Shown here one piece after another: positions 881 to 21,554 of a stretch of DNA of 33,301 nucleotides. The position numbers were made by a program, and so were the translations under genes. The stretch is from Fulvivirga sp. (lineage in GTDB: Bacteria > Bacteroidota > Bacteroidia > Cytophagales > Cyclobacteriaceae): NCBI GenBank assembly GCA_028280565.1, contig JANQLQ010000064.1, positions 1 to 33,301 of the forward strand. Reading direction: 5' to 3'. Position 1 is the stretch's first letter. Every line of letters starts with the position of its first letter. The notes under the pieces were generated by a model. That model saw only the letters and a program-made list of their open reading frames with translations. It was not told the DNA's origin and made no database searches.

Positions 881-915
881 TGTGTACGTGCACATTATAA
901 AAGTGTTCGAGCACT
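881..915. promoter_or_regulatory. Paired LacI-type operators before the symporter operon
   Basis: Two imperfect palindromes, TGTGTACGTGCACA (881-894) and AGTGTTCGAGCACT (902-915), each match the inferred consensus TGTGCTCGAGCACA at 11 of 14 positions. Their centres lie 21 bp apart, about two helical turns, so a dimer at each site would sit on the same face of the DNA. The pair ends 67 bp before the symporter start codon. The central CG dinucleotide is typical of LacI-family operators. Over 43 nt (880-922) it matches the minus strand of the pair before lacI (10356-10314) at 34 positions. A weak -7-like element, TAAGCTTTG, lies at 927-935. Confidence 0.7.
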
Positions 916-982
916 TTAAGAAATTATAAGCTTTGATACTGCGATTAAAAGTATCCACGGTTTAGCACCGGCTCAACGTATT

Positions 983-2806
983 ATGCAAATAAAAACCCTT
1001 GATATTCTAATTATCTTAGCTTACTTGGCCCTGTCGGTCGCGATCGGTTTTTATATTTCCAAAAGAGCTTCGAAAAACCTTCAGTCTTATTTTCTCGGGG
1101 GTAATGCTATTCCATGGTATTTGCTGGGAGTTTCCAATGCCTCCGGTATGTTTGATATTTCCGGGGTCATGTGGACGGTCACGATCTGTTTCGTGTATGG
1201 CCTCAAAAGCGCTTGGATCCCGTGGCTCTGGCCGGTATGGAACCAGGTGTTTGTCATGGTGTTCCTAGCGATCTGGCTAAGACGATCAGGCGCCATGACA
1301 GGGGCAGAATGGCTCTCTACGCGTTTCGGAAATAGTCATGGCCAGCGTTTATCCCACATCGTGGTGGTCACCTTTGCCGTGATCAGTGTGATCGGTTTTA
1401 TTGCATACGGCTTTAAAGGGGTGGGTAAATTCGCTTCCATCTTTTTTTCCTATGACTTGTCATTTTCTCTAGGGAGTATGGCTATCTCTTCTGAAAATGC
1501 CTATGCGCTCATCATTATTGCCATTACGACGTTGTACGTTGTCAAAGGTGGAATGTATAGTGTGGTGGGCACGGAGCTATTACAGTTTGTGCTCATGACC
1601 TTCGCTTGTTTTGCTATTGGATACGTGGTCATGACCCAGGTCACTGCGGAACAGATCGATCAATCTGTGCCCGCAGGTTGGAAAGATATTTGGTTCGGAT
1701 GGCAACTGGACCTGGACTGGTCTAACCTTTTACCCGCCGTAGATAACTACATCCGGCAAGACGATTTCAATTTATTCGGCCTTGTGGTCATGCTCATGGT
1801 GTTTAAAGGCATTTTTGCCTCGCTGGCAGGACCCGTTCCCAGCTACGACATGCAGCGTATACTGGCGACAAAATCTCCCAAAGAAGCCGCCCAAATGAGT
1901 GGTTTTACGATAGCGGTCTTATACATGCCCCGGTATTTGATGATTGCTGGCCTCACCGTGCTAGGGCTTGTTTATTTCAAACCCCAGCTTCTGCAAATGG
2001 GGGACAATATGGATTTTGAGATGATCTTGCCCTACGTCATCAATAATTTTATTCCTACTGGAGTCCTCGGCCTGATCTTGGCCGGGCTCATGGCTGCCTT
2101 TATGTCGACCTTCGCCGCTTTTGTAAATGCCGCCCCGGCGTATTTGGTCAATGATATCTATAAAAACTATATCAATCCGGATGCCCCTGCCAAACAATAC
2201 ATATACATGAGCTATGCGGCGTCCGTCCTCATCGTATTTGTAGGGGTATTTGTAGGTTTTTTTATTGATTCGATCGATTCTATTACCAAATGGATCGTAG
2301 CGTCGCTTTATGGTGGTTACACAGCCGCCAATGTCTTGAAATGGATATGGTGGAGGTTTAACGGGCATGGGTATTTCTGGGGAATGATCATGGGGCTGAT
2401 CGCTTCTATGGTAGTCCCCAAGGTCTTCGTGGGCGTGTTTGACCTGTACTTGTACCCGGTCATACTGGTAATCGCCCTGGCAGGGTGCCTTGTGGGCACT
2501 TACTTGACCCCTCCCGAGGATGAAGATACGCTTAAAAAATTCTACAAAACCGTACGACCATGGGGGTTTTGGAAACCGATCCATCAGAAAGTGATGGCGG
2601 AGGATCCCTCGTTTCAAGGAAATAATCACTTTGGAAGGGACGTCTTTAATGTAGTCATCGGTGTGGCTTGGCAAATGACCATGGTGGTGATACCTATTTA
2701 CTTGGTGATACGTGAGTATTACTCGCTGGGAATCAGCATTGCATTGCTTATAGCATCAAGTTTCTTGCTAAAGAAATTTTGGTGGGACAGGCTACCCGAA
2801 AAATAA
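983..2806 (+). CDS. Sodium:solute symporter family transporter
   Basis: This 607-residue, very hydrophobic protein has the pattern of the sodium:solute symporter (SSS) family, inner-membrane carriers that import sugars, sialic acids or similar solutes with Na+. I see about 13-14 membrane segments along nearly the whole length. Family-like motifs are AEWLSTRFG near residues 108-116 and GGMYSVVGTELLQF near 188-201. The length is within the family's usual range. It is the first gene of the left operon, 67 bp after the operator pair and 35 bp before the DUF4434-like gene, so it most likely brings the locus's mono- or disaccharide into the cytoplasm. The substrate cannot be read from the sequence. 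Confidence 0.9.
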   Translation: MQIKTLDILIILAYLALSVAIGFYISKRASKNLQSYFLGGNAIPWYLLGVSNASGMFDISGVMWTVTICFVYGLKSAWIPWLWPVWNQVFVMVFLAIWLRRSGAMTGAEWLSTRFGNSHGQRLSHIVVVTFAVISVIGFIAYGFKGVGKFASIFFSYDLSFSLGSMAISSENAYALIIIAITTLYVVKGGMYSVVGTELLQFVLMTFACFAIGYVVMTQVTAEQIDQSVPAGWKDIWFGWQLDLDWSNLLPAVDNYIRQDDFNLFGLVVMLMVFKGIFASLAGPVPSYDMQRILATKSPKEAAQMSGFTIAVLYMPRYLMIAGLTVLGLVYFKPQLLQMGDNMDFEMILPYVINNFIPTGVLGLILAGLMAAFMSTFAAFVNAAPAYLVNDIYKNYINPDAPAKQYIYMSYAASVLIVFVGVFVGFFIDSIDSITKWIVASLYGGYTAANVLKWIWWRFNGHGYFWGMIMGLIASMVVPKVFVGVFDLYLYPVILVIALAGCLVGTYLTPPEDEDTLKKFYKTVRPWGFWKPIHQKVMAEDPSFQGNNHFGRDVFNVVIGVAWQMTMVVIPIYLVIREYYSLGISIALLIASSFLLKKFWWDRLPEK

Positions 2807-2841
2807 ATGTAGACGATAGGTCAGATAGAGATGAGTAAAAT

Positions 2842-3843
2842 ATGGAACTAACTAGAGGTATAAAAATTACTGGGACATTCCTAGATGAAATTAGCCACGA
2901 TATCCCCCATCAAAACTGGGGAGTTCATGAGTGGGAAAAAGACTTTCAAGCCATGAAAGCCTTCGGTATCAATACGGTGATCATGATACGATGTGGCTAT
3001 AAAAAGTGGATCACCTACAACTCGGAGATCCTGCTGGGACAGGAAAATTGTTTTAGGCCTGCCATTGACTACTTAGACCTGTTCCTGCGCCTTAGCGAAA
3101 AGTACGGGATGGACTTTTATTTTGGACTGTATGATTCGGGTAATTATTGGGTGAATCAACAATATGAGAAGGAATCAGATCTGAATCGTTCTATTGTGGA
3201 TGAAGTATGGGAAAAATATGGCAAGGCCAATGCGTTTAAAGGCTGGTACATTTCCCACGAGATCAATCGTCATGTGCCGGGTGTGGTCGACAACTACGTG
3301 AAATTAGGAGAGCATTGTAAGCAGTTAACAGGATTGCCCGTATTGATCTCGCCCTACATTGATGGGAAAAAAGCGGTAGCCGCCAATAGCTCGGTATTGG
3401 CCAAAAAAGAGAGTACTTCCATTGTGCAATACGAGGAAGAATGGAACGAGGTCTTTGACAGGATCAAGCACGCCGTGGATATTGTTGCTTTCCAAGATGG
3501 GCACGTAGATTTTCATGAGCTGCAGGATTATTTCGAGATCAACCGGCGGTTATCTAAAAAGCATGGTATCCGTTGTTGGAGCAATTGCGAATCGTTCGAT
3601 AGGGATATGCCGATCAAATTTTTGCCGATCAAATGGGAAAAGATGCTCATGAAACTAAAAGCGGCCCAACAAGCCGAGGTGGAGAAAGCGATCACTTTCG
3701 AGTTTTCTCATTTTATGAGCCCCAACTCAAGTTACATCCAAGCTCATCATCTTTATAACCGTTATGTTGAACACTTTGGAAAAAGTGTAGAAACCGAAGC
3801 TTTGTTTCGTACCATCCAGCCGGGTAATTCACAAAAGGTATGA
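2842..3843 (+). CDS. DUF4434-like TIM-barrel protein, probable glycosidase
   Basis: The 333-residue protein has no signal peptide, so it is probably cytoplasmic. Its start (IKITGTFLDEISHDIPHQNW) and alternating strand-helix pattern resemble DUF4434 proteins, TIM-barrel proteins of Bacteroidota that look like clan-A glycoside hydrolases. Candidate catalytic glutamates, by inference only, are Glu140 in GWYISHEI and Glu250 in SNCESFDRD. They follow successive barrel strands, as the acid/base and nucleophile do in retaining clan-A enzymes. The stop codon overlaps the AGE-family start (ATGA), which implies translational coupling. A role acting on a disaccharide delivered by the symporter fits the position. 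No activity is assigned with confidence. Confidence 0.75.
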   Translation: MELTRGIKITGTFLDEISHDIPHQNWGVHEWEKDFQAMKAFGINTVIMIRCGYKKWITYNSEILLGQENCFRPAIDYLDLFLRLSEKYGMDFYFGLYDSGNYWVNQQYEKESDLNRSIVDEVWEKYGKANAFKGWYISHEINRHVPGVVDNYVKLGEHCKQLTGLPVLISPYIDGKKAVAANSSVLAKKESTSIVQYEEEWNEVFDRIKHAVDIVAFQDGHVDFHELQDYFEINRRLSKKHGIRCWSNCESFDRDMPIKFLPIKWEKMLMKLKAAQQAEVEKAITFEFSHFMSPNSSYIQAHHLYNRYVEHFGKSVETEALFRTIQPGNSQKV

Positions 3844-5021
3844 ACCCCGCCATTCTCCCATATGCTGAACGATACCATGCCTCCCTTCTTCATGACGTGC
3901 TGTACTTTTGGGAAAAGTACAGCATTGACCGGGAGAAAGGAGGATACTTTACTTGCTTAGACGAAGTAGGGCAGGTATACGATACGGACAAATTCACTTG
4001 GCTGCAAGCCCGTCAAGTATGGACCTTTTCCAAGCTTTATAACGAACTCTCTCAAAATGAGGCTTGGTTAGAAATTGCGGGTAGTGGGTCGGTATTCCTG
4101 GAAGGGTTTGCCTTTGATGAAAATGGAGATTGTTATTTTGCGCTGGATAGGGAAGGGAATCCTTTAGTGCAGCCTTACAATATTTTCTCCGATTGTTTTG
4201 TGACCATGGCCTTTGCTCAATATGGGTTGGCGGCCGGGGATCAGTATTACATGGAACACGCGAAACGGCTGTTTTCCCGGATTTTAGAGCGTAAAGAAAA
4301 CCCAAAAGGCATATACAATAAAGTCATCCACCAGCATAGACCATTAAAAGGCTTTGCTTTGCCCATGATCCTGAGCAACTTAGTGCTGGAGTTGGAGCAT
4401 GTGCTTTCTGAAGACCAGGTGCAAGATACCATTGCCCAGTGTGTAACGGAGATCACGCAACATTTTTTATGTGCTGAAAGTGGGCTCATTTTTGAAAATG
4501 TACTCCTGGATGGAAGCCAACATGATTCTTTTGAAGGACGCTTGATCAATCCCGGCCATGGTATTGAAGCATGCTGGTTTCTCATGGACATTGCCCAAAA
4601 AATAGGTGATACTGAATTAATGGAAAAAATGGTTTCCACCAGTCTATCCTTAATTGAATACGGGTGGGATGAACGATATGAGGGTATCTTCTACTTCTTG
4701 GACGTCAAAGGACATCCGCCCCAGCAGTTGGAGTGGGACCAGAAATTATGGTGGGTGCACTTAGAGGCGTTGATTGCCTTGGTAAAGGGCTTCAAGTATA
4801 CTGGGGATCCCAGGTGCTGGCAGTGGTTTGAAAAGCTCGATGAATATACTTGGTCACATTTTAGAGATCCCCGTGGAGGATTAGAATGGTACGGCTACCT
4901 TAACCGGCAAGGAGAGGTGCTCCTTCCGCTCAAAGGGGGGAAGTGGAAGGGGTGTTACCATGTACCACGTGCCCTGCACATCCTATCGTCTGAATTGAAA
5001 GCAATGTCTGAACAAGGGTGA
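3840..5021 (+). CDS. AGE-family sugar 2-epimerase
   Basis: This 393-residue protein belongs to the N-acylglucosamine 2-epimerase (AGE) superfamily, an (alpha/alpha)6 barrel that interconverts GlcNAc and ManNAc, or in other branches glucose and mannose at a free or terminal reducing end. The diagnostic histidines are visible: His240 in NPGHGIEACWF, His307 in KLWWVHLEAL and His374 in KGCYHVPRAL. The first and last match the catalytic pair of AGE and cellobiose 2-epimerases. There is no signal peptide, and the length is normal for the family. It overlaps the DUF4434-like gene by 4 nt and lies 7 nt before the GH92 gene. With a mannosidase next door, mannose-to-glucose conversion is as plausible as ManNAc-to-GlcNAc. 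Confidence 0.9.
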   Translation: MNPAILPYAERYHASLLHDVLYFWEKYSIDREKGGYFTCLDEVGQVYDTDKFTWLQARQVWTFSKLYNELSQNEAWLEIAGSGSVFLEGFAFDENGDCYFALDREGNPLVQPYNIFSDCFVTMAFAQYGLAAGDQYYMEHAKRLFSRILERKENPKGIYNKVIHQHRPLKGFALPMILSNLVLELEHVLSEDQVQDTIAQCVTEITQHFLCAESGLIFENVLLDGSQHDSFEGRLINPGHGIEACWFLMDIAQKIGDTELMEKMVSTSLSLIEYGWDERYEGIFYFLDVKGHPPQQLEWDQKLWWVHLEALIALVKGFKYTGDPRCWQWFEKLDEYTWSHFRDPRGGLEWYGYLNRQGEVLLPLKGGKWKGCYHVPRALHILSSELKAMSEQG

Positions 5022-5028: not shown

Positions 5029-7278
5029 ATGAGAACAAAGCGAAATACGACAATTTGTTTTTTGTTAAGCTTCCTTATACTCGCAGCATGTGATTATATG
5101 ACCTGTGAGCGGCAAGGTTTGGACCCACTGTCGTACGTGGACCCGTTCATTGGTACAGGAGGACATGGGCATACTTTTCCCGGTGCTACCACGCCGTTTG
5201 GTATGGTACAGCTAAGCCCGGATACACGGCTGCTAGGCTGGGATGCTTCCAGTGGCTATCACCATTCAGATTCTACGATCTATGGTTTTTCTCACACCCA
5301 CCTCAGCGGAACAGGGATAGGAGACCTAGGCGATGTGTTGTTTCTCCCTTACACCGGGGAGCAGTCTCCAACGCCCGTAGCCACCTTTAAAAAAAGTACC
5401 GAACAAGCCCGGCCCGGCTATTACAAGGTTCACCTCGAAAACTTCGATGTCAAGGCCGAACTCACAGCCTCACCTCGTGCCGGGTTTCATCGTTATACCT
5501 ACGGTCAAAACGCAGAAAAAAAACTCCTGATCGACTTAGGGCATGCGTTACAATCCGATTGGGGGCATAAAAGTACGGGTGGCTCGCTGGAACTGGTCAA
5601 TGATCGCGAGATCAAAGGGGTTACCATGACATCGGGATGGGCGTATGATCATAAGGTATATTTTCATGTAAAATTCTCATCGCCTTATGAAGTGATACAA
5701 CTGTGGACTGGCAAAACCCCGGTAGAAGGTGAAAAAGTGGACGGGGATTCCCTCAGGGCGTTTATCCGCTTTCCAACCATGGATTCCCAGCAACTGCTTG
5801 CCAAGGTAGGTATTTCTGCCGTGAGCGAAGAAGGCGCCTTAGAAAACCTGGAAGCTGAGATCGAAACATGGGAATTCGCTGCCGTACGTTCCGCTGCGGA
5901 AGAATTGTGGAGAAAAGAGCTATGTAAGATCACGGTGAAGACGAAAGACCCCGGGTTATTGAAAAGTTTCTATACAGCCCTTTACCATACCCATATGGCT
6001 CCCCGGCTTTTCCAGGATGTGGATGGGAAGTACCGCGGAATGGATAAAAAAATACACCAAGCCGAGGCAGGCTATACTAATTACACGATTTTTTCGCTTT
6101 GGGATACCTTCCGTGCTTGGAACCCCTTAATGACCATAATCAACGAAGAGAGATCGGCGAATTGGATCAATTCATTACTCAAAAAGTACGAGCAGGGAGG
6201 CATCTTACCCAAATGGCCACTGTCGGCAAATTACACGGGTACCATGGTAGGCTACCCGGCAGTAGCCGTTTTTGCCGACGCCATAGCCAAAGAAATGGGA
6301 GGTTTTGACCAGGCGCTCGCCTTAGAGGCGTCAGTACATAGCTCGCAGTACCATCCTGACCTGGGCCTGGCCGAACCTCGCGCTTCGAGGGTATCACCTC
6401 GCCATCATTACTACTTGGAAAAACACGATTATATCCCCGCGGATTCTGTCGCTTGGTCCGTTTCTTATGGACTGGAATGTGCCTACTACGATTGGTGTAT
6501 CGCGAAGATGGCTTCGCACTTAAACAAAGAGGAGCTTGCAGACCTCTATTTTGGCAGATCGCAAGCCTATAAAAACTATTTTGATCCGGGTGCCAGGCTC
6601 ACGCGGGGGAAGCTGGGCCGCGGGCAATGGAAAGAACCTTTTAGCCCTGTACAATCTGATTTTCATGGTGATTTCGTCGAAGGGAACTCGTGGCAATGGT
6701 CTTGGTTCGTACCCCATGATATCCCGGGTTTAATGGGGCTCATGGGAGGTAGTGCGGCCTTTTCAAGCCAGCTCGATGCCTTGTTTCAAGCGGATACAAC
6801 ACTGGAAGGAGAAGATATCCCGCTGGATATATCAGGCTTGATCGGCCAGTATGCTCACGGCAATGAACCAAGCCATCATGTGACACACCTTTACAATTAT
6901 GCAGGTGAACCGCATAAGACCCAACAAAGGGTGGATCAAGTCCTTTGGGATTTGTATCAGCCTACGCCGGGGGGCATCGCCGGGAATGAAGACTGTGGTC
7001 AAATGTCTGCATGGTTTGTCATGAATGCTATGGGTTTTTACCAAGTATGTCCGGGTACGCCTGTATACTCTATCGGCAGGCCATTGTTTGAAGAGGTCAT
7101 TATTGATGTGGGGGACGGCAAGCACTTCACCATCAAAGCAAACAATGTAAGCCGGGAAAATAAATATGTTCAGCAAGCCTCGCTATCCGGGCAATTGTTA
7201 GAGACCCCGTTCTTTTCACACCAAGCGCTTATGGATGGAGGTACCTTAGAACTAAATATGTCAGCAAGTTATGAATAA
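5029..7278 (+). CDS. GH92 family alpha-mannosidase lipoprotein
   Basis: The 749-residue protein is a GH92 glycoside hydrolase, calcium-dependent inverting exo-alpha-mannosidases of Bacteroidota. The N-terminus opens with the family signature DPFIGTGGHGHTFPGATTPF and GMVQLSPDTR. Glu613 in HGNEPSHH fits the general acid and Asp655 in GNEDCGQMSAW fits the catalytic base. A lipoprotein signal ends in LAAC (Cys at about residue 21), so the enzyme is membrane-anchored in the periplasm or at the surface. Length and C-terminus are complete for the family. It starts 7 nt after the epimerase gene and overlaps the next gene by 8 nt. Linkage specificity (alpha-1,2, -1,3, -1,4 or phosphomannose) cannot be decided here. 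Confidence 0.93.
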   Translation: MRTKRNTTICFLLSFLILAACDYMTCERQGLDPLSYVDPFIGTGGHGHTFPGATTPFGMVQLSPDTRLLGWDASSGYHHSDSTIYGFSHTHLSGTGIGDLGDVLFLPYTGEQSPTPVATFKKSTEQARPGYYKVHLENFDVKAELTASPRAGFHRYTYGQNAEKKLLIDLGHALQSDWGHKSTGGSLELVNDREIKGVTMTSGWAYDHKVYFHVKFSSPYEVIQLWTGKTPVEGEKVDGDSLRAFIRFPTMDSQQLLAKVGISAVSEEGALENLEAEIETWEFAAVRSAAEELWRKELCKITVKTKDPGLLKSFYTALYHTHMAPRLFQDVDGKYRGMDKKIHQAEAGYTNYTIFSLWDTFRAWNPLMTIINEERSANWINSLLKKYEQGGILPKWPLSANYTGTMVGYPAVAVFADAIAKEMGGFDQALALEASVHSSQYHPDLGLAEPRASRVSPRHHYYLEKHDYIPADSVAWSVSYGLECAYYDWCIAKMASHLNKEELADLYFGRSQAYKNYFDPGARLTRGKLGRGQWKEPFSPVQSDFHGDFVEGNSWQWSWFVPHDIPGLMGLMGGSAAFSSQLDALFQADTTLEGEDIPLDISGLIGQYAHGNEPSHHVTHLYNYAGEPHKTQQRVDQVLWDLYQPTPGGIAGNEDCGQMSAWFVMNAMGFYQVCPGTPVYSIGRPLFEEVIIDVGDGKHFTIKANNVSRENKYVQQASLSGQLLETPFFSHQALMDGGTLELNMSASYE

Positions 7279-9235
7279 CCAGGTATCTTTTTTTGAAATA
7301 TTCCCTTGGCAAAGGTTGCTCAGCTTTTGGTTAAGTATCGTAGTAGCTTGTTTAGTTATGGCTTGCCAGCAACAGCCATTGGAAATACGGCAAACGGATG
7401 TCTTGGTGATAGGAGGGGGGAGCAGTGGGGTGGCTGCCGGCATACAAGCTGCCCGGTCAGGGGCGGCCGTGATCATTGCAGAGGAAACCCCATGGCTGGG
7501 TGGAATGCTAACCTCCGCAGGGGTCAGCGCGATAGATGGTAATCACAAGCTGCCTTCCGGGCTATGGGGAGAGTTCAGGGAAAAGATCTACGAACATTAT
7601 GGAGGTGCCAGCGCCGTGGCCACCGGCTGGGTAAGTAACACACAATTCGAGCCCCATATAGGCAATAAGGCTTGGAATGAATTGGCCGATGAGCAGGCGG
7701 CTTTAACACGGTTGCATGGCTTACAGTTGGTAACAGTGCTTAAAGAAGGTAAAAAAGTGATCGGTGCGGTATTTTCGAAGAATGATGGCACCCAAATACA
7801 GGTCAACGCAAAGGTCACCATTGACGCCACAGAGCTGGGAGATGCCATAGCCATGGCCGGTGCAGAGTTTTTTCAAGGGCAAGACCCCCAATCGCTGACC
7901 GGTGAAGCTGCCGCTCCTACGGTAGGAAACGATTATGTTCAAGACCTCACCTATGTGGCCATTCTAAAAGACTATGGCAAGGGAGTCGATAAAACGATCC
8001 CGAAACCGAAAAACTATGATCCTAGTCAATTTAACTGCCTGTGCGCAGATGTTTGCGACCAGCCTGGGGACGGCCCCATAGCCTGTGATAAGATGCTTCA
8101 GTATGGCAAACTACCCAATGAAAAATACATGATCAATTGGCCGAATGACGGGAATGATTATTACGTTAATGCATTGGAAATGACCCCTGCAGAAAGAGAA
8201 ATAGCGTACCAGCAAGCGAAGGAACATACGCTATCGATGGTCTATTTTATACAGACAGTGCTTGGATATGCTCACTTAGGCCTGGCCGAAGATGAATTTG
8301 AAACATCGGATCGTTTACCCTATATCCCGTATCACCGTGAAAGCCGCAGGGTAGCCGGGGAGATGTTCCTTACGTTAGAGTCGTTAGAAGATCCTTACCG
8401 TGACCCTACACGACCACTTTTTCAATATGCCATCGCTGTTGGGGATTACCCCTTGGATCACCATCATAAGAAAAACCCTTTGGCGGTTCAAGTGGATTTC
8501 CCGGCTATTCCTTCCTTTTCCATCCCCTTTGGAGCCTTGCTTCCGCGGAACATCGAGGGAATGCTTGCCTGTGAAAAGAATATCTCGGTGAGCCACTTCG
8601 TAAATGGCGCTTCCCGGTTACAGCCTTGTGTGATCTTGATCGGACAGGCTGCCGGTGCTACAGCAGCACTTGCGGTAAAAGCAGGGATCGGACCAAAAGC
8701 AGTGAATGTACGGGAGCTACAACAGCAGCTGCTAGACGCTAATTGCTGGCTACTACCGTTTATTGATGTTTCACCGGCGAGTCCTTACTTTCAGCCACTG
8801 CAAAAACTGGGGGTAAGCAGCCTACTAAAAGGACATGGTGTACCCTACAAGTGGGCTAACCAGACTTGGATCTACCCGGATTCTGTCGTGTCTTATGGAG
8901 AATTGATCAATACGCTTGAAAAATGTACGGGTAGGTCAGTGAGCCCGGAGAAAATGCCACGCGACCTGGCCGGCACCGTAAAAGTGAAAGAAGCGATGCT
9001 GCTAATATGGAAGTGGGCCACGGATGCCCCCGCAACTCGCACCCCAAGCAACCGGGATTACCAACTAAGCTACGCGCATTTTGAATCCAACGGCTGGCTG
9101 GAATTATGGAAAGCAGGGGATGCTGATCAAGAAAAAGAACTTACTCGCAAGGACCTGGCGTTTTTCATCGACCAAGCCTTTGACCCTTTTAACCAATTGG
9201 CTGTGCCGGTTCCACGTAAAATACTTCCGGATTAG
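7271..9235 (+). CDS. FAD-dependent oxidoreductase lipoprotein
   Basis: This 654-residue protein has an N-terminal hydrophobic segment ending in VMAC, a likely lipobox, followed by an FAD-binding Rossmann motif GGGSSG (residues 48-53) and ETPWLGGMLTSAG. It matches the FAD_oxidored family (PF12831 type), often annotated as FAD-dependent oxidoreductase or, loosely, as xanthan-lyase-associated. The reaction is unknown; oxidation of a sugar hydroxyl is a guess from context. The C-terminal part (about 497-555, and again near 620-634) resembles S-layer-homology-like repeats: FIDVSPASPYFQPLQKLGV, then WIYPDSVVSYGELINTLEK. The start codon sits in the end of the GH92 gene (ATGAATAA overlap), so co-translation is likely. 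It converges on lacI with 15 nt between the stops. Confidence 0.85.
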   Translation: MNNQVSFFEIFPWQRLLSFWLSIVVACLVMACQQQPLEIRQTDVLVIGGGSSGVAAGIQAARSGAAVIIAEETPWLGGMLTSAGVSAIDGNHKLPSGLWGEFREKIYEHYGGASAVATGWVSNTQFEPHIGNKAWNELADEQAALTRLHGLQLVTVLKEGKKVIGAVFSKNDGTQIQVNAKVTIDATELGDAIAMAGAEFFQGQDPQSLTGEAAAPTVGNDYVQDLTYVAILKDYGKGVDKTIPKPKNYDPSQFNCLCADVCDQPGDGPIACDKMLQYGKLPNEKYMINWPNDGNDYYVNALEMTPAEREIAYQQAKEHTLSMVYFIQTVLGYAHLGLAEDEFETSDRLPYIPYHRESRRVAGEMFLTLESLEDPYRDPTRPLFQYAIAVGDYPLDHHHKKNPLAVQVDFPAIPSFSIPFGALLPRNIEGMLACEKNISVSHFVNGASRLQPCVILIGQAAGATAALAVKAGIGPKAVNVRELQQQLLDANCWLLPFIDVSPASPYFQPLQKLGVSSLLKGHGVPYKWANQTWIYPDSVVSYGELINTLEKCTGRSVSPEKMPRDLAGTVKVKEAMLLIWKWATDAPATRTPSNRDYQLSYAHFESNGWLELWKAGDADQEKELTRKDLAFFIDQAFDPFNQLAVPVPRKILPD

Positions 9236-10273: not shown

Positions 10274-10320
10274 AATGTAAAAGTAGTATTCGAGCGGCTA
10301 ACTAGCAACAGGGTTCTTTA

Positions 10321-10355
10321 AGTGCTCGAACAATTTTTAATTGTTCTCGTGCACA
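10321..10355. promoter_or_regulatory. Paired LacI-type operators between lacI and susC
   Basis: AGTGCTCGAACAAT (10321-10334, 10 of 14 consensus positions) and TGTTCTCGTGCACA (10342-10355, 12 of 14) have centres 21 bp apart, the same spacing as the pair at 881-915. Read on the minus strand, the 43-nt block 10356-10314 matches 880-922 at 34 positions, so the module faces lacI as the other faces the symporter gene. It lies 47 bp upstream of the lacI start and about 316 bp upstream of susC. Autoregulation of lacI is likely, and control of susC is possible. Confidence 0.7.
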
Positions 10356-10671
10356 ATTTGTTTTTTAACCCAAAAAAAACTACTTTTAATTGATTGAAAA
10401 ACAGTTGAAACAAACTACCAGGCTTATGGAAAAGAAGAAGTACAAATGTGGTCTTATTGGCGCCTCTCGCCCGCTTGGAAATGGGGTGGCAGGTACAGAC
10501 TGAAAGGGTGGAATCACGGATTTCACATGATCTGCATAAATGAACCATACACATGAAATGTCCATGCTCACGGGTGTCCCTGCAAGCAAGCCAACACTGG
10601 TAACGAGATCGCTGGGAGGGTCAAAAGGCTTGGAAAATGCCATGTGATCATAGAAAACCAGTAAAATATAC
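10356..10671 (+). other. Long susC leader with a possible short leader ORF
   Basis: About 316 nt separate the operator pair from the susC start. No family-level gene is visible. A 25-codon frame begins at ATG 10426 (MEKKKYKCGLIGASRPLGNG and five more residues) and stops at 10503. Its lysine-rich start followed by GLIGASRP faintly recalls the N-terminus of Gfo/Idh/MocA oxidoreductases. A second short frame starts at 10541. They could be leader peptides, gene remnants or chance. Long untranslated leaders before susC, sometimes with antisense RNAs, are known in Bacteroides. Confidence 0.3.
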
Positions 10672-13827: not shown

Positions 13828-15371
13828 TACGGCGGTTGCAAAATATTCACGGTTTCACCCGTACAGTGTTTAAAACGGTGCTTCTGTCCCTGGTCTTTAC
13901 AGCTTGTACGGGAGACTTTGAAGAATTGAACGAAAGCCCCACAGGCTTAGAGGAATCCAGGGCAGATGAGGACCTGCTCTTTACCCGGGCATTGGTCTAT
14001 GGCATGTTGCGCTACACGGAGTTCCAGCGCGCCCAGCATTTATATGCTCATCATTATATCCAGTATTATTCTGTGGCAGTGGATTACTTCCCGACCGGCC
14101 GGTATATCACACGTGACGATTGGCTTACCGATTACTGGGAAGAAGCATACGCCGATTACGCTATGAATTGCCAGCAGGTGATCAACCTAACGCAAGATGA
14201 ACCGGAAAAGATCAACAAAACCTCCATAGCGCGTATATGGAAGGTGTTTATCATGCACCGGATCACCGATTTCTGGGGTGATGTTCCATATTTCGAAGCT
14301 TTCCAAGGGGACTTGATGATTGCCTATGACCGGCAAGAGGATATTTACCGGGATATGCTTTTAGAGCTTGAAGATGCCGTAAACCAGTTTGACCCGTCCA
14401 GGACACTGAATTTTAGCGCCAATGATGTCATGTATGGAGGGAGTATTGATCGCTGGACGCGGTTTGCGAACTCCCTGCGCTTGAGATTGGCCATGCGTAT
14501 TTCAGGAGTGGATCCTGTCCTTGCCGAAGAAAATGTAAGGGAAGTATTGGCAGATAACCGGCTTATCGAGAATAATGAGCAATCGGCGATCATGAATTAC
14601 GGCCGGGACTTTGGGGGAGCGGATGAGAATGTACAGCCGATGTCCCTGATCAAAAGCTTCAACGAATATCGTTTCAGCAACACCCTCATTGATTACTTGC
14701 AGGATAATAACGATCCCCGGCTCCCCGTCTACGCCACCCCGGTGAACGGGAATTATGTAGGGCTTACCAATGGATTGAATCCCATTGAAGTGAACGCGAT
14801 CAATCGTAATGACTTCTCCCAAGACAGTGATATCATTTCCGGGGCGTATTCCCCAAGTGCAGCGTTGCAATACGCCGAGGTTTGTTTCTTGAAGGCCGAA
14901 GCCGCATTAAGAGGTTGGGCCGCGGGCAGCCCGCAAGAACATTACGAAGACGGCATCCGCGCTTCCATTAACTATTGGCTGGAGGTCTACGACAACCTGC
15001 AAGGACGCGTTCCCGATGCAGGGAACGTATTGCCAGTGATAGAGATCACATCTGCCGATATCGATGCGTTTTTAGACGAACCCGCCATACGCTACGATGA
15101 CAGCAACGCATTAGCGCAGATCATCACTCAAAAATGGGTTGCGAACATCAATAATGGCTTCGAATCCTGGGCAGAATATAGACGAACTGGATTCCCGGTA
15201 CTGAATCCGATCCCCAATACCGATGGGCTTAGCGAAACAGGTGGATCTACCGTGCCTACACGTGTACGATACCCTGTCGAAGAGCGGACCTTGAACGCAG
15301 TAAATTACGAAAGAGCTGTTCAAAACAACCCAGACCTTGTAACCACCCGGGTGTGGTGGGACATAGACTAA
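13824..15371 (+). CDS. susD: SusD/RagB-type glycan-binding lipoprotein
   Basis: This 515-residue lipoprotein has a signal peptide with lipobox FTAC and an alpha-helical TPR-rich body. IMHRITDFWGDVPYFEAFQGD in the middle and the closing segment NYERAVQNNPDLVTTRVWW are typical of the SusD-like_2 type. Such proteins sit on the outer face of the SusC barrel and capture oligosaccharides. The gene overlaps susC by 4 nt. It is followed after 56 nt by two Asp-tethered lipoprotein genes, the usual position of surface glycan-binding proteins in a PUL. The ligand cannot be predicted because SusD specificity is not readable from motifs. Confidence 0.95.
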   Translation: MIRRLQNIHGFTRTVFKTVLLSLVFTACTGDFEELNESPTGLEESRADEDLLFTRALVYGMLRYTEFQRAQHLYAHHYIQYYSVAVDYFPTGRYITRDDWLTDYWEEAYADYAMNCQQVINLTQDEPEKINKTSIARIWKVFIMHRITDFWGDVPYFEAFQGDLMIAYDRQEDIYRDMLLELEDAVNQFDPSRTLNFSANDVMYGGSIDRWTRFANSLRLRLAMRISGVDPVLAEENVREVLADNRLIENNEQSAIMNYGRDFGGADENVQPMSLIKSFNEYRFSNTLIDYLQDNNDPRLPVYATPVNGNYVGLTNGLNPIEVNAINRNDFSQDSDIISGAYSPSAALQYAEVCFLKAEAALRGWAAGSPQEHYEDGIRASINYWLEVYDNLQGRVPDAGNVLPVIEITSADIDAFLDEPAIRYDDSNALAQIITQKWVANINNGFESWAEYRRTGFPVLNPIPNTDGLSETGGSTVPTRVRYPVEERTLNAVNYERAVQNNPDLVTTRVWWDID

Positions 15372-15427: not shown

Positions 15428-17056
15428 ATGAAAAGTAAGTACTTAAATCTAAACACCTTATTGAGTGTGTTATCTTGTTTCGCCATGCTCACGTTCTTTG
15501 CCGCCTGTGGCGACGATGACGATGATAATGGCGAACCCTTAAGTGATGCCAAAGAGATCTTATCTTTTGTCTTTGCTGATCTCACCCCAGCCGTACAGGG
15601 CAACATAAACGGAACGGCTATTACGGCCATGGTACCTTTCGGTACAGATGTGACTGCGTTAGAGCCTACGGTTACCATATCGCAAGAAGCTACCGTAAGC
15701 CCTGCCAGCGGCCAGGCACAGGATTTTTCGAGCCCGGTCACCTATACCGTTACCGCTGAAGATGGCTCCGAAGCCACGTACACCGTGACGGTGAACGTAA
15801 CGGCTGGTTCTTCAGAAAAAGAGCTCACCACTTTCATATTTGAAAGTCTCGATCCCGATGTTGCGGGAGTCATCACGGGCAACGATGTGGCCGTTGACGT
15901 ACCTTTTGGTACCGATGTGAGTGCTTTGGCCCCTACCATCACCCTTTCAGACCTGGCCTCAGTGGCGCCGGCCAGTGGTGTAGAGCAAGATTTTTCCAGC
16001 CCGGTCGATTATACAGTGACTGCACAGGACGGGAGTACGAATGTGTACCAGGTTACGGTGACCATACTTCCTAAGCCTGGTCTTGCGATAACGCCGGTAT
16101 GGGAAAAGGTATTGAGAGTGGCAGGGACTGATGCACTCCCTAACTGGTTTACAATCAATAATGATGCTGATATCGCTGTTGGTAATGGGTCTGTTTATGC
16201 CATGAATAACCGTGATAAAATACGGATACTGGACCCTTCCACAGGTGACGAAAAGGTAGTAGATGATTTTCTAAGCCATACAGTGACTGTTACTGGTGTG
16301 TATGCAAATATCGTTGCTGTTAAAGTGGACGCCGGAAATAATATCATCGGTAGTTCGGGTTCATTGCCAGGGGGCAATTGGCATGTATATCAATGGGACG
16401 ACGAGTCAGCCACTCAAGAAGTAATCTTAACTTGGGAGAGCGTCCCGTTCAGGATAGATAATTTCGCCGTGGTCGGAGATATGGATGGAGAAGGATATAT
16501 CTATGCTGCTAGCAATGATTCCAACCAAATATACCGTTGGGAAGTGAGTAATGGTACAGTATCAAGTTCCACTCCTACCATAACCACAGTGTCTGAAGTG
16601 GATAACTTTGGAAGCTTTACGGCCATCTTCCCGCTGTCAGCGGACGCCAATTCTGATCTTTTGGTCAATGGAAACAAGATCCAGCCTATTTTGGTAGGTG
16701 CGGATGGTACGGTCAAGGAAGAATTACCTGCAGCAATCATTAATGAAGCAACCGGGGTTTTGACAGGCTTTACTTCAGACCTAGTCTATTTTGAATTGGG
16801 TGCTAATAAAGTCTTAGTCACTATTAACACACCTAATCCTAGTACGCAAGACCTAGTATTTATCGATGTAACCAACGGGCTGCCACAAGTTACAGAAGAT
16901 GATATACAGCGTGTAGAATTTAGCGATAATTCTTTGGACGCTACCAATATTAATGCTACTGGAGGACTTGCTTTTGAAACAGCAGGTAGCACGGTAACGG
17001 TTTATGGCTTAATTACCAATAATGGTATAGGCGCTTACACCGTTGAGTTAAACTAA
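15428..17056 (+). CDS. Asp-tethered lipoprotein with two DUF5018-like modules
   Basis: This 542-residue protein has a signal peptide and lipobox FAAC followed by an Asp-rich tether (GDDDDDNG), a surface-export type signal in Bacteroidota. Two Ig-like modules of about 85 residues follow (roughly 43-125 and 136-218), each with VPFGTDVxALxPT, then DFSSPV, YTVTA and DGS; this matches the DUF5018-like pattern. The C-terminal half (about 225-542) has repeated short strands such as VYAMNNRDKIRILDP and IYRWEVSNG, suggesting a beta-propeller, perhaps the DUF4623 type. Its place after SusD suggests a surface glycan-binding protein. No catalytic motif is visible, and the ligand is unknown. Confidence 0.8.
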   Translation: MKSKYLNLNTLLSVLSCFAMLTFFAACGDDDDDNGEPLSDAKEILSFVFADLTPAVQGNINGTAITAMVPFGTDVTALEPTVTISQEATVSPASGQAQDFSSPVTYTVTAEDGSEATYTVTVNVTAGSSEKELTTFIFESLDPDVAGVITGNDVAVDVPFGTDVSALAPTITLSDLASVAPASGVEQDFSSPVDYTVTAQDGSTNVYQVTVTILPKPGLAITPVWEKVLRVAGTDALPNWFTINNDADIAVGNGSVYAMNNRDKIRILDPSTGDEKVVDDFLSHTVTVTGVYANIVAVKVDAGNNIIGSSGSLPGGNWHVYQWDDESATQEVILTWESVPFRIDNFAVVGDMDGEGYIYAASNDSNQIYRWEVSNGTVSSSTPTITTVSEVDNFGSFTAIFPLSADANSDLLVNGNKIQPILVGADGTVKEELPAAIINEATGVLTGFTSDLVYFELGANKVLVTINTPNPSTQDLVFIDVTNGLPQVTEDDIQRVEFSDNSLDATNINATGGLAFETAGSTVTVYGLITNNGIGAYTVELN

Positions 17057-17116
17057 AATGTATGAAGATCGACAACGTCTTCGATAAAGTTTCTTTTAAA
17101 TATGAGTTTTAATGCT

Positions 17117-18511
17117 ATGAAAAAAGTGTCAAACATTTTCTTGTCTGTCATCTTTTTACTTGGGATAATGGCCATTGTCTCTTGTGGTGACGATGACGGT
17201 GACGACGGCCCATTACTCAGCAAACGAAAAGAGATCACATCGTTTGAATTAGAGGGAGGATGCCTGGGTGGCAATGTCACCGGGGATATTAATGGCGATA
17301 ATTTCACGGTTAGGGCCACCGTTCCTTTTGGTACGGATGTGACCACGCTGGCACCTATGATCGGGATCTCGCAAGAGGCGAGCGTACAGCCTACTTCCGA
17401 GACACCACAGGATTTCACTACACCGGTAGTGTATACCGTTACTGCCGAAGATGGCACTACCCAGGACTGGACAGTGATCATCACCGTAGCAGGGGAGGAT
17501 AGCCAGCCCGTACTTACATTAAGTAGTGCAGTTTGGGCTTTAACAACTTTTCAAGGCACTTTGCCTGACTGGTTTACGAGTAACGGGGAAGATGGGATAG
17601 CGTATGGCAATGATCACGTATACGCTTCGTTCAACCATGATCAAATTAAGTTTTTGGATCCTGCTAACGGAGATTCCCGTGGCGACCTGGACATGACAGG
17701 AGTAGACGGTGGAAGCTTGAAGATCTCCGATGTGGAAACCAGTGCCGACGGATCCATTTTGGCCTGTAATGTGGTCGATCATAATGGCAACGGGACAGCC
17801 ACTTTTAAAATATACCGGTGGGCCTCAGAAACCAGTGCCCCCGAGGTATACCTTGAGTATGAAGTGAGCGATGTGGTCAGGTTAGGAGATAATCTTTCAG
17901 TGATTGGCGACGTTACAGGAGACGCCGTGATCTACACGGCCTACGGAAGGAATTTTTCTGCCGGCCAACGCGGAGCCGATGTATACCGCTGGGAAGTTAC
18001 AGGCGGAATACTCAACGAAACCCCTACCATCATACGCAGTAGCGATTTTGGGCTTTCTGGCCTGGGGTCCAGGGCACATGCCACTGCACTCAGTGTAGAC
18101 GATGACGTAGTCTGGGTGAACGGTAACGACGTAGATGTAGCTACGCTGTCTCTCACCGATGGCAGTATCCAACAGCAGCTTCCGAATGAAAATCGAGACT
18201 TGGTGGATTTCTTTTACAATAACTTCGTGGTCTTTAACCTATGTGACAGGACGGTCATTGCTTCGGTTTTCCCAAGAAGTGCCAACGAAAGCCGTTTGCT
18301 AGTAATTGACGTGACGAACGGGCTTGACAACGTGACCGCAGACGAGGTGATCTATTCCGAGGATTTTGTGCAAGGAAATACGACCGACAATGCAGATGCC
18401 AGTGGAAATGTCACTTACAATAAAGTAAGTGAATCCGAAGCGGAGGTCTACATTTTGATCACTAACCAAGCGCTGGCTAAATTCAGGCTTACCTTAGAAG
18501 CAGGAAGTTAA
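17117..18511 (+). CDS. Asp-tethered lipoprotein with DUF5018-like and propeller-like domains
   Basis: This paralogue of the preceding protein has one DUF5018-like module (about residues 37-125, with VPFGTDVTTLAPM, DFTTPVVYTVTAEDGT) and a similar C-terminal region with VYASFNHDQIKFLDP and VYRWEVTGG. The signal peptide ends in IVSC followed by GDDDGDDG. I prefer the ATG at 17117 (MKKVSNIFLS), which gives a standard lipoprotein signal; 17102 is an in-frame alternative adding five residues. It starts 60 nt after the previous gene and is followed by a terminator-like hairpin, so it probably ends the susCD transcript. It is a likely second surface glycan-binding protein; binding is inferred from context only. 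Confidence 0.8.
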   Translation: MKKVSNIFLSVIFLLGIMAIVSCGDDDGDDGPLLSKRKEITSFELEGGCLGGNVTGDINGDNFTVRATVPFGTDVTTLAPMIGISQEASVQPTSETPQDFTTPVVYTVTAEDGTTQDWTVIITVAGEDSQPVLTLSSAVWALTTFQGTLPDWFTSNGEDGIAYGNDHVYASFNHDQIKFLDPANGDSRGDLDMTGVDGGSLKISDVETSADGSILACNVVDHNGNGTATFKIYRWASETSAPEVYLEYEVSDVVRLGDNLSVIGDVTGDAVIYTAYGRNFSAGQRGADVYRWEVTGGILNETPTIIRSSDFGLSGLGSRAHATALSVDDDVVWVNGNDVDVATLSLTDGSIQQQLPNENRDLVDFFYNNFVVFNLCDRTVIASVFPRSANESRLLVIDVTNGLDNVTADEVIYSEDFVQGNTTDNADASGNVTYNKVSESEAEVYILITNQALAKFRLTLEAGS

Positions 18512-18584: not shown

Positions 18585-18614
18585 TTTTCCAAAGGCAAAA
18601 AGGTATACAAAAAT

Positions 18615-19763
18615 ATGTTTGTAGATCGGCTTCACGGCTTCGTTTTCTTAGGCATGGTTGCGCTCTCTATGTGCTTATCGTGCTCGCCTAGCCCCCCGCG
18701 AGAAATAAAAGAGGCGGTTAGGGGAGTCTGGCTTACCAATGTGGCAAGTGATGCTTTGCGTTCCAAAGAAAAAATAGAAGAAACGGTCGCTTTACTAGAT
18801 TCGTTGAATTTCAATACGATTTTTGTCGTCACTTGGAATAGGGGGTATAGCTTGTATAAAAGCGAGGTGATGAAAAACCTTACCGGCTACGAGATAGACC
18901 CGGTTTATGGAGATCGTGATCCTTTGCAGGAAGTTATTGAAGCGGCACATCGGCGGAACATTAAAGTATTTGCCTGGTTTGAATTTGGTTTTGCGTCTTC
19001 CTATGACGAAGCGGATGGCGGCATGTTATTGCGAACAAAACCTGCTTGGGTGTCTTTAGATGCAAGCGGATCAATAACGGCAAAGAATAAGTTCCAATGG
19101 ATGAACGGGTTTCATCCCGAGGTACAAGATTTTATCTTATCGCTGGTAGGAGAGGTAGTTAAAAACTACGAGGTGGATGGTATCCAGGGAGATGACCGCT
19201 TGCCCGCCATGCCGGTAAATAGCGGGTACGATGAATACACTGTAGGGCTTTATCAGCAAGAACACAACGGGCAATCTCCGCCCAGCAACGAAGCGGACCC
19301 CGACTGGGTCGATTGGCGCGCCCAAAAGCTCAATGCCTTTATGGGTAGATTGTACCATCAAGTCAAAAAGTGGGATCCGAACTGCATCGTGTCTATGTCG
19401 CCGAGCATCTACCCTTGGAGTAAGGAAAACTACTTGCAAGATTGGCCTACGTGGGTAGAGGAAGGATATGTGGACTTGCTCTGTCCACAACTTTACCGGT
19501 ATGACCTAGAGGCCTATACGTTGTTGCTGGATGAAATACTTACCAAACAATTAGCTCAAGAGAACCATGGCATCTTCTATCCCGGTGTTTTGTTGCAGGT
19601 AGATGACTATAACCCTTCCCATGAGCTTCTAACGCGTAAGTTGGAAGAAAACCGGGCAGCAGGTATTCACGGAGAAGTATTCTTCTTTTTTGAAGGGGTA
19701 AAGAAATTCAAAGATCTTTTTAAAGATCATTATGACCATAAGGCCCCGTTCCCCACATTTTAA
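18615..19763 (+). CDS. GHL10 (DUF187-type) glycoside hydrolase lipoprotein
   Basis: The 382-residue protein has a lipoprotein signal with lipobox CLSC and a glycosyl-hydrolase-like 10 (PF02638-type) TIM barrel starting at VRGVWLTNV. The acidic active-site strand is DGIQGDDRLP, with Asp193, Asp194 and Arg195. The only studied member I can name is E. coli DigH (YddW), an outer-membrane lipoprotein that cleaves denuded peptidoglycan glycans, so amino-sugar beta-linkages are a reasonable guess. The gene lies 104 nt after the susCD group behind a terminator and 5 nt before its paralogue. The specificity is not fixed by sequence. Confidence 0.88.
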   Translation: MFVDRLHGFVFLGMVALSMCLSCSPSPPREIKEAVRGVWLTNVASDALRSKEKIEETVALLDSLNFNTIFVVTWNRGYSLYKSEVMKNLTGYEIDPVYGDRDPLQEVIEAAHRRNIKVFAWFEFGFASSYDEADGGMLLRTKPAWVSLDASGSITAKNKFQWMNGFHPEVQDFILSLVGEVVKNYEVDGIQGDDRLPAMPVNSGYDEYTVGLYQQEHNGQSPPSNEADPDWVDWRAQKLNAFMGRLYHQVKKWDPNCIVSMSPSIYPWSKENYLQDWPTWVEEGYVDLLCPQLYRYDLEAYTLLLDEILTKQLAQENHGIFYPGVLLQVDDYNPSHELLTRKLEENRAAGIHGEVFFFFEGVKKFKDLFKDHYDHKAPFPTF

Positions 19764-19768
19764 TTCAA

Positions 19769-21502
19769 ATGATCATGAAAAATACATTCAATACACTAAC
19801 AAAACGAATCGGTTTTATGGTCCTCTCCTTGATCCCTTTATTTTGGGTGGCTTGTGGAGATGATGATAGTTCCGAAGAGCCGAGCGCGGAAAATGCAATC
19901 TTGGACTTCGAATTCCAAGGCATAACAGGCAATACAGGCGCTGCCATCGACAATGTGAACTACACGGTCATTGATACGTTGCCCGCCAATACCGATGTCT
20001 CGGCGCTAGTCCCTATCATTGGTATTTCTGACAGAGCTGCCATTGATCCCCCCTCGGGTGAAGCACAAGACTTTACCAACCCCGTAGTATATGTGGTCAC
20101 CGCCGAGGATGGGACCAACCAAGTTTACACGGTAACCGTACGGTTAAAAGAAGAAGTGATCGATGTTCCTAAAAGCGATGACAACGAGATCAAATCCTTC
20201 ATCCTATCCAGTGCCTTCATCCGTGGGGAGATTGAAGGAAATGTGATCACAGCTTCTGTCCCGTTTGGCACAGCGATAAACGATATGGCTGTGGCCATCG
20301 AGCTTGATGAAGACGCCACCGTGGTCCCGTCGCTTACCGAAAATCAAGACTTTACCAGTCCCGTAAGCTATACGGTCACGGCTGAAAACGGGGATGAAAG
20401 AACCTATACCGTACAGGTGAATGTACAACCCCAAGATGTAGGTGTACGTGGAGTGTGGCTTACTAACGTGGATAGCAACGTATTGAACTCCCAAGCCCAA
20501 ATAGAAGAAGCCGTAGCGCTGTGCGACGAACTGAACATTAACACCATCTTTGTGGTGACATGGAACAAGGCGCTCACTACCTATCCCAGCCAGGTAGCCC
20601 AAGCGATAACAGGCAACGAGATCGATCCTCTTTATACCGGCCGTGATCCGCTACGGGAGCTGATCGATGCCGCGCATGCCAGGGACATCAAAGTGATGGC
20701 CTGGTTTGAATACGGATTTGCCGCATTTAACGGGAGTCCCGGCCCCATCCTCGACAATTCTCCTGTTTATTGGCAGGCGAAAGACGTCAATGGCGACATC
20801 GTGGTAAAGAATGGCTTTTACTGGATGAACGCTTTCCACCCGGAGGTGCAACAGTTCATGGTCGACCTGGTCACCGAGGTGGTAGAGAATTACCCGGACA
20901 TAGACGGTGTACAAGGCGATGATCGCTTGCCCGCCTGCCCTACGGAAGCAGGTTATGATGACTACACAGTAGACAAATACAGGACAGAACACGAAGGGCA
21001 AGATCCCCCTCGTGAATCCCGGAACACGGCCTGGTTAAGATGGCGCGCGGATATCATTAATGCTTTTGGACAGGCGCTTTACGATTCTGTAAAAAAAGAA
21101 AATGCCGACATGGTCGTAGCGATGTCCCCAAGCCCGTTAAGTTTCGGGTACGATGAATACCTGCAAGATTATACGCATTGGGTGGAAAATGAATATTGTG
21201 ATATCGTGAGCCCGCAACTCTACCGGAGAGAGAGCCAAGGGATAGAGGTATATCGGAACCTTCTCAATTCACAATTGAACCGGTTGGACCCCGCAGGCAG
21301 GTCGATCTTCTACCCGGGATTGCTTCTATTTTTAGGAGGATACCTGCCCAGCCAGCAATTCATTGCAGATATGGTGCAATCCAACCGGGCAGAGGGAGTA
21401 CAAGGTGAGGTCTATTTCTTCTATACCGGCTTTACCGATCCCGGCGTGCAAGAGGTGATCAAGGCCATGTACCCGGCGAAGGCCATCTATCCTAGTTTTT
21501 AA
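19769..21502 (+). CDS. DUF5018-like modules fused to a GHL10 glycoside hydrolase, lipoprotein
   Basis: This 577-residue lipoprotein (lipobox WVAC, then GDDDSS) carries two DUF5018-like modules (about 40-130 and 140-225, each ending VTAEDG or VTAENG) and a C-terminal GHL10 barrel (about 226-577) starting at VRGVWLTNV. The barrel is closely related to the upstream protein, with DGVQGDDRLP at Asp384, Asp385 and Arg386. The modules are of the same kind as in the two lipoproteins after SusD, which suggests modular reuse for spacing or glycan binding. It is probably an outer-membrane enzyme, possibly surface-exposed because of the acidic tether. ATG 19775 is a possible alternative start. The gene is 5 nt after its paralogue. 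Confidence 0.87.
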   Translation: MIMKNTFNTLTKRIGFMVLSLIPLFWVACGDDDSSEEPSAENAILDFEFQGITGNTGAAIDNVNYTVIDTLPANTDVSALVPIIGISDRAAIDPPSGEAQDFTNPVVYVVTAEDGTNQVYTVTVRLKEEVIDVPKSDDNEIKSFILSSAFIRGEIEGNVITASVPFGTAINDMAVAIELDEDATVVPSLTENQDFTSPVSYTVTAENGDERTYTVQVNVQPQDVGVRGVWLTNVDSNVLNSQAQIEEAVALCDELNINTIFVVTWNKALTTYPSQVAQAITGNEIDPLYTGRDPLRELIDAAHARDIKVMAWFEYGFAAFNGSPGPILDNSPVYWQAKDVNGDIVVKNGFYWMNAFHPEVQQFMVDLVTEVVENYPDIDGVQGDDRLPACPTEAGYDDYTVDKYRTEHEGQDPPRESRNTAWLRWRADIINAFGQALYDSVKKENADMVVAMSPSPLSFGYDEYLQDYTHWVENEYCDIVSPQLYRRESQGIEVYRNLLNSQLNRLDPAGRSIFYPGLLLFLGGYLPSQQFIADMVQSNRAEGVQGEVYFFYTGFTDPGVQEVIKAMYPAKAIYPSF

Positions 21503-21540
21503 AATATGTTTAGTGAATTGTTCTTTGATGTTTCAATTTA

Positions 21541-21554
21541 TGTGCTCGAGCACA
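21541..21554. promoter_or_regulatory. Perfect LacI-type operator before the nagB-like gene
   Basis: TGTGCTCGAGCACA is a perfect 14-bp palindrome and gives the consensus for the other four sites. It lies 41 bp before the start codon and 4 bp upstream of a -7-like element. A repressor bound here would block the promoter. There is no full second site 21 bp away; a half-site-like TGTTCT lies at 21519-21524. Confidence 0.75.

Follow-up and report, generated by a model that had tools for sequence, protein, structure and literature searches.

Introduction

The window analysed here, 33,301 nucleotides of a Fulvivirga sp. (Cyclobacteriaceae), a marine gliding bacterium, that make up the entire contig C102 of a draft genome (9.05 Mb, 337 contigs; genome label G000), holds a cluster of carbohydrate genes with a LacI-family regulator gene (lacI) in its midst and five 14-bp palindromes in front of its genes, and the question that it raises is which protein reads these palindromes and to what effect. 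We propose that they are very probably the operators of the resident LacI-family regulator, because the sites and their spacings recur in relatives, because pairs 21 bp apart lie upstream of lacI in 50 of 78 loci, and because residue 19 of the regulator covaries with the letters of the half-site; the explanation as a whole, including the dimer arrangement and the ligand described below, we consider likely. The cluster is a polysaccharide utilization locus (PUL) in that adjacent susC (TIGR04056) and susD (PF12771) genes stand together with GH92 and GHL10 genes. No gene for a hybrid two-component system, SusR or an extracytoplasmic function (ECF)/anti-sigma pair was found among the 17 proteins scanned out of the 24 open reading frames (ORFs) of at least 120 aa in the window, the other 7 ORFs lying opposite scanned genes.

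Palindromes in the Window

The palindromes lie as two pairs, one before a symporter gene (operators 1a and 1b) and one between lacI and susC (2a and 2b), and as a single site before a nagB-like gene (operator 3; Table 1). All five are centred on CG, which is typical of LacI-family operators, and stand at the coordinates given in a first-pass annotation made from the letters of this DNA; their arms match at 6, 6, 5, 5, and 7 of 7 positions, respectively, and operator 3 is the only perfect palindrome among them, as that annotation had said. Two further observations of the first pass were reproduced exactly: in each pair the second site starts 21 bp after the first, and 34 of 43 positions are equal between the best blocks, for example 881-923 and the reverse complement of 10313-10355. 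Two of the three target regions in the window are paired in this way, and the nagB region has its single site. CG-centred palindromes (at least 4/6 arm matches) 21 bp apart occur twice in the window, against a mean of 0.13 and a maximum of 2 in 200 dinucleotide shuffles. With up to 3 mismatches the perfect consensus has 6 window matches versus 0.87 expected (100 dinucleotide shuffles), of which 4 are reported operators and 2 lie at other places (17770 and 22573), the operator at 10321 being missed; a matrix built from the five sites, and hence circular by construction, scores the operators at 16.5-21.7 and the next window match at 10.3.

Conservation in Close Relatives

The nearest named relatives of the window LacI are those of Fulvivirga sp. 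M361 (G013, the same genus as the window; 80%), a Cyclobacteriaceae metagenome-assembled genome (G095; 70%), and Anditalea andensis (39%). The first pass had proposed a comparison of the regions upstream of orthologous lacI genes, and this comparison finds sites and spacing kept: M361 has all five sites in front of the same genes and at the same spacings (L035 at 2904/2925 and 12484/12505; L138 at 4648), and G095 likewise has all five with both spacings, on three contigs (the L193 pair from 252, the L075 pair, and L194 at 3428). In a third genome (G010), whose LacI is 55% identical and whose cluster is rearranged, with lacI following nagB on the same strand at a distance of about 100 bp, pairs stand before susC (L140, 6716/6737) and before the symporter gene, and one site stands before nagB. 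A lack of conservation of the sites and of the 21-bp spacing, which the first pass had named as grounds for giving up the idea, was looked for and did not occur.

Between the window and M361 the block upstream of and including the symporter pair is 88% identical over 91 bp, and the symporter promoter may lie within it. The AT-rich part upstream of the pair (window 827-880) is strongly conserved in M361 and partly in G095, and it holds two AATTGAAA repeats 20 bp apart, possibly a promoter or a site of another regulator. At the other pair, susC stands 127 bp farther from its operators than in M361 (window 10400-10671); a search against Rfam gave no match at the gathering threshold, this segment included.

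Paired Sites across the Family and Beyond

Within the family, a LacI homologue (E ≤ 1e-35) occurs in 108 of 295 genomes. The 78 lacI-upstream regions compared are the window and 77 loci, of 150 listed places (71 of the best 72 and 7 weaker ones). The 50 loci with a 21-bp pair represent 17 of 28 genera and 37 flank clusters at 70% identity, and among the spacings between motif matches in the 78 regions 21 bp is counted 50 times, 2 bp 7 times (overlapping readings), and 19 bp 4 times; exceptions include 22 bp in L076, 110 bp in L042, and single sites in several loci. A SusC-like gene is found nearby in 41 of the 77 loci, a nagB-like gene (at least 50% identity) in 13, and at least one of the two in 49, a sign that susC/susD loci of Cyclobacteriaceae are routinely under LacI control. 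In a large part of the family the core is TGTKTGCGCAMACA instead, a sequence of which the genomes of the window, M361, and G010 have no copy; it is present in 44 of the 108 genomes with a homologue at this threshold versus 5 of the 187 without, the reversed control giving 2 and 3. Outside the family, a pair at 21 or 22 bp was seen in 4 of the 29 loci examined (L163-L191); in one genome of a further family, two perfect TGTGTGCGCACACA sites stand 21 bp apart (L176).

Other arrangements were also met. Before nagB, L043, L044, and L050 have two operators 31 bp (three helix turns) apart in place of one, and TGTGTGCGCACACA pairs at 31 bp occur in G021:C1 and G123:C1 as well. The LacI homologue match of L050 (G006) comes in two pieces with TAG in the second, reflecting either a broken gene or a sequencing error.

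Covariation of Residue 19 with the Half-Site

The specificity residues of LacI proteins sit in the recognition helix, at the start of which residue 19 is found (VS-R-GT in the window). Where this residue is Arg, half-site positions 5-6 read C[AT] in 23 of 28 half-sites (9 loci); where it is Val, they read C[AT] in 15 and TG in 90 of 202 half-sites (42 loci), and the core sequence of the Val19 proteins is TGTKTGCGCAMACA. In another family (f25), a clade with Lys19 has TGTGCTCG/TGTGTTCG sites. In a tree of 90 of the 92 LacI rows (rows shorter than 300 aa dropped, L177-L191 left out), one group of 30 rows contains the Arg and Lys proteins, and another contains 42 of the 43 Val proteins.

Candidate Promoters and Site Geometry

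The Bacteroidota promoter consensus, as given in the excerpted text of PMC7366714, is TTTG near -33 and TAnnTTTG at -7, the same text stating that no -33 motif was found in Flavobacterium johnsoniae. On that side of the pair where susC, or in some loci another gene, is located, TTG-N18..22-TAnnTTTG (at least 5/6) is present in 33 of the 50 loci, compared with means of 3.4 in mononucleotide shuffles and 5.2 in 100 dinucleotide shuffles (largest 12); after dereplication it is present in 24 of 37, compared with 8.8% of AT-matched random windows. The distance from the pair to the start of the TTG is 14-16 bp in 28 loci, 2 bp in 4 (the window, L035, L075, and L039), and a different one in 1; no such promoter is seen in 17. 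The lacI-side counterpart is seen in 7 of 50 loci versus 1.6 in shuffles, too few to generalise.

At nagB an exact TAnnTTTG follows the site after 1-4 bp in the window, L043, L044, and L050, and the same is true, after 3 bp, of the symporter pair of L140; in G095 the distance at nagB is 15 bp, and the nagB gene of L138 has no clear -7 element. An upstream position occurs here too, in L036, with TTG 14 bp after the site, and in the nagB pairs of L038, L089, and L090, which lie upstream of a candidate -33. Sites of this regulon are accordingly placed either upstream of -33 or inside the core promoter, which hints at two modes of action, the upstream geometry fitting contact with polymerase and the core-promoter geometry fitting occlusion.

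Genes of the Cluster and Probable Unlinked Targets

The run behind pair 1 comprises the symporter, DUF4434, N-acylglucosamine 2-epimerase, GH92, and FAD-oxidoreductase genes, and pair 2 lies between lacI and susC-susD-DUF5018-DUF5018-GHL10-GHL10. The regulator combines an N-terminal PF00356 helix-turn-helix (54.5 bits, cut-off 27) with a periplasmic-binding-protein-like effector domain (PF13407, 97.8 bits), and the closest solved structure is 3gbv, a putative LacI-family regulator. GH92 enzymes act on phospho-mannans, and a mannose- and amino-sugar-containing glycan is a plausible substrate of the locus.

Table 1. Probable operators, candidate promoter elements, and genes of the window
Feature	Position	Strand	Remarks
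Operator 1a	881..894	+	Upstream half of symporter pair; reads TGTGTACGTGCACA; same letters in M361 and G095
Operator 1b	902..915	+	21 bp from 1a; reads AGTGTTCGAGCACT; equally spaced counterpart in M361, G095, and G010
Operator 2a	10321..10334	+	lacI/susC intergenic pair; reads AGTGCTCGAACAAT; counterpart in L035 (M361) and L075 (G095)
Operator 2b	10342..10355	+	21 bp from 2a; reads TGTTCTCGTGCACA; counterpart in L035 and L075
Operator 3	21541..21554	+	Single, before nagB-like gene; reads TGTGCTCGAGCACA; single nagB site also in M361, G095, and G010
Candidate -33 element (TTTG) of susC	10357..10360	+	TTG 2 bp after operator 2b, N20, TACTTTTA; L035 and L075 alike
Candidate -7 element (TACTTTTA) of susC	10381..10388	+	
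Candidate -33 element (TTG) of lacI	10306..10308	-	12 bp from operator 2a, N20, TACTTTTA; TATTTTTA equally distant in L035
Candidate -7 element (TACTTTTA) of lacI	10278..10285	-	
Candidate -7 element (TAAATTTG) of nagB-like gene	21559..21566	+	Exact TAnnTTTG, 4 bp after operator 3
Sodium:solute symporter (PF00474)	983..2806	+	First gene past pair 1
DUF4434 protein	2842..3843	+	
N-acylglucosamine 2-epimerase	3840..5021	+	NF052547, 604 bits, cut-off 600
GH92 alpha-mannosidase family	5029..7278	+	
FAD-dependent oxidoreductase	7271..9235	+	PF12831
LacI-family regulator	9251..10273	-	PF00356 and PF13407; 340 aa; recognition-helix residue Arg19
SusC-like TonB-dependent transporter	10672..13827	+	TIGR04056
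SusD-like lipoprotein	13824..15371	+	PF12771
Two DUF5018 proteins	15428..18511 (15428-17056, 17102-18511)	+	Putative surface-glycan-binding role, from position
Two GHL10 glycosidase-like proteins	18615..21502 (18615-19763, 19769-21502)	+	
Glucosamine-6-phosphate deaminase-like protein (nagB-like) with PIG-L domain	21596..23509	+	NF002557

The first pass had called the regulon self-contained, which it probably is not. An intergenic TGTGCTCGTACAAA at L200:3074-3087 (G000:C104:43073) scores 16.4, versus 16.5 for the weakest operator, and the gene behind it is a frame of 2294 aa that combines NAGPA (phosphodiester glycosidase) and calcineurin-like phosphoesterase domains with a C-terminal sorting domain and runs divergently from an AraC-type gene. 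In the window's genome no second site lies 21 bp from this one. A homologue of the frame was found in 1 of 8 relatives searched, G095 (53%), where TGTGCTCGTGCAAA (L195:2594-2607) lies 117 bp upstream of it. With two genomes, which are few, the NAGPA-domain gene is probably an unlinked member of the regulon, and its site points to the use of amino sugars and phospho-glycans. In G010, TGTGCTCGAGAACA (L196:1819-1832, G010:C214) lies 154 bp upstream of another susC-like gene, possibly a further target. A place at C105:46380 (score 16.6) was dropped as a further site; it falls within an FtsX/MacB-like ORF and has no CG at its centre.

Proposed Mechanism and Alternatives

We envisage one LacI dimer on each 14-bp site, so that two dimers would sit side by side on one helix face (21 bp, two turns), perhaps cooperatively, in front of the symporter operon and in the lacI/susC interval, and a single dimer before nagB. 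A sugar or sugar phosphate from glycan degradation would alter the hold of the regulator on DNA, probably an amino-sugar intermediate because the cluster encodes an N-acylglucosamine 2-epimerase and a glucosamine-6-phosphate deaminase-like protein, and the response to this ligand would co-ordinate uptake, breakdown, and the regulator's own synthesis. At nagB the most likely outcome would be repression by covering of the core promoter; at susC and lacI the regulator would touch or hinder RNA polymerase with the start left uncovered, because the pair stands farther upstream than either candidate -33 element, and the sign at susC could go either way.

That sign separates two versions of the explanation. 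There is about an even chance that all three units are repressed, with the susC pair blocking alpha-subunit contacts or a global activator and the ligand releasing the regulator everywhere: LacI-family regulators are mostly repressors, one ligand would then give one coherent response, and the exact TAnnTTTG directly behind the nagB sites of four loci and the L140 symporter pair speaks for it. The susC pair fits this version less well, since it ends 14-16 bp (28/50) or 2 bp (4/50) before the -33 TTG and thus falls largely outside the usual reach of steric repressors, and since the distance from pair to TTG is kept while the flanks diverge. Possible, if clearly less probable, is a regulator that activates at susC, where the pair is upstream of -33, and represses at nagB, where the site lies between -33 and -7, in the manner of Cra in enteric bacteria, whose double role is mentioned in the excerpted text of PMC4052901. 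The presence of two distinct site-promoter geometries in one regulon favours such a switch, yet both targets belong to one catabolic pathway, where it would be odd for one ligand state to have opposite effects, the upstream geometry is found at nagB too (L036, and the pairs of L038, L089, and L090), and the promoters are candidates predicted from sequence.

Another owner of the palindromes, for instance a paralogous LacI, is very unlikely. The genome has 9 LacI-family matches including that of the window, and one of them, an Arg19 protein 40% identical to the window LacI, is encoded on G000:C30; no such pair lies upstream of this paralogue, however, and the pair accompanies orthologues of the window LacI in M361 and G095, the sites staying in place after rearrangement of the cluster. 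The C30 locus (L037), without a paired site, places this second Arg19 homologue beside a second nagB-like gene, and cross-talk is possible. We give next to no credence to chance palindromes in AT-rich intergenic DNA, an idea in keeping with the genome-wide frequency of single sites, which does not exceed the control, but contradicted by the conservation of five sites in two relatives, the 21-bp peak, and the covariation.

Several observations nevertheless weigh against assigning the sites to the resident LacI. Genome-wide, the consensus with up to 2 mismatches matches 10 places versus 9 for the reversed pattern, and WGTKYWCGWRMAMW is found 24 times forward and 17 times reverse versus 33 and 28 in the control, so that single sites are not enriched; the motif alone was therefore dropped as evidence, which consists instead of pairing, position, and conservation. 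The first pass had regarded many equally good matches elsewhere as fatal, and such matches exist for single sites and not for pairs, since no WGTKYWCGWRMAMW place listed outside the window contig has a partner 21 bp away (outside the window, matrix scores cover the places listed by the consensus and WGTKYWCGWRMAMW scans). By the criterion used, 28 of the 78 loci are without a 21-bp pair, among them every one of the 6 homologues below 35.5% identity, and the 11 Lys19 loci of f25 are spaced at 23 bp in 6 cases, 21 in 2, and 22 in 1, with no pair in 2. Directly upstream of the G010 lacI gene no site is present, no symporter promoter could be located by the -33/-7 criteria in the window or in L035, and the Arg label has to change 5 times on the tree, so that the covariation counts are not independent events.

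Relation to Known Systems

The published systems are compared here as the excerpts of the cited papers describe them. Paired LacI sites at 21-22 bp are known from RafR of Enterobacteriales and ScrR of Burkholderiales, where they are read as two cooperative dimers; LacI inter-site peaks fall at 13, 22, and 32 bp, some regulons have only double sites at 21-22 bp, and autoregulation is given for 72% of the LacI-family regulators studied (PMC4052901). The present locus shares the palindromic sites in such pairs and differs from the RafR and ScrR regulons in its phylum, in its SusC/SusD targets, in the fixed relation to a Bacteroidota-type promoter, and in that nagB is single-sited in the window, M361, G095, and G010, unlike the only-double-site rule. 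NagR of Shewanella, a LacI-type repressor of the N-acetylglucosamine (GlcNAc) pathway whose newly assigned genes include omp-Nag and nagB-II (PMC2996990), is alike by description in regulator type, pathway, and outer-membrane transporter and nagB-II targets, whereas the cluster here has SusC/SusD, GH92, and GHL10 genes. The Bacteroides LacI regulators KdgR, UxaR, UxmR, and UxuR, again likened by description, have family, phylum, and carbohydrate role in common with ours but are assigned to uronate pathways (PMC3878776). Hybrid two-component regulators likewise have two boxes about 21 bp apart before PUL genes (PMC3878776), but those are direct repeats read as the sites of one dimer, whereas each box here is palindromic and the regulator is of LacI type. 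A lacI gene is also drawn in a marine xylan PUL (PMC5306329).

The first-pass view that LacI control is exceptional among PULs is weakened by the frequency of the homologue and of neighbouring SusC-like genes in the family, and by the LacI genes and regulons already in print for a marine PUL and for Bacteroides. Within the excerpts returned, a search of open-licence papers yielded no account of this LacI clade or of its Cyclobacteriaceae operators, which is weak evidence of novelty. With paired sites at 21-22 bp already known, the least ordinary point is the susC pair just upstream of a conserved -33, as opposed to the nagB site mostly abutting -7.

Implications

A wider reading, which we hold to be rather unlikely, would make this LacI clade, which is widespread in Cyclobacteriaceae and occurs in other Bacteroidota too, a dual switch in which two dimers at a set distance upstream of -33 activate susC and a single core-promoter dimer represses amino-sugar catabolism, with an unlinked secreted enzyme carrying a GlcNAc-phosphodiester-glycosidase domain as a further member, so that the target would be a glycan of the GlcNAc-phospho-mannose type. 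More generally, the 14-bp site, the 21-bp pair rule, the fixed -33 distance, and residue 19 together form a regulatory code that can be put to the test for many PUL-like loci outside gut Bacteroides, and that could let targets be read from DNA, unlinked genes included, and could narrow the substrate class to amino sugar and mannose.

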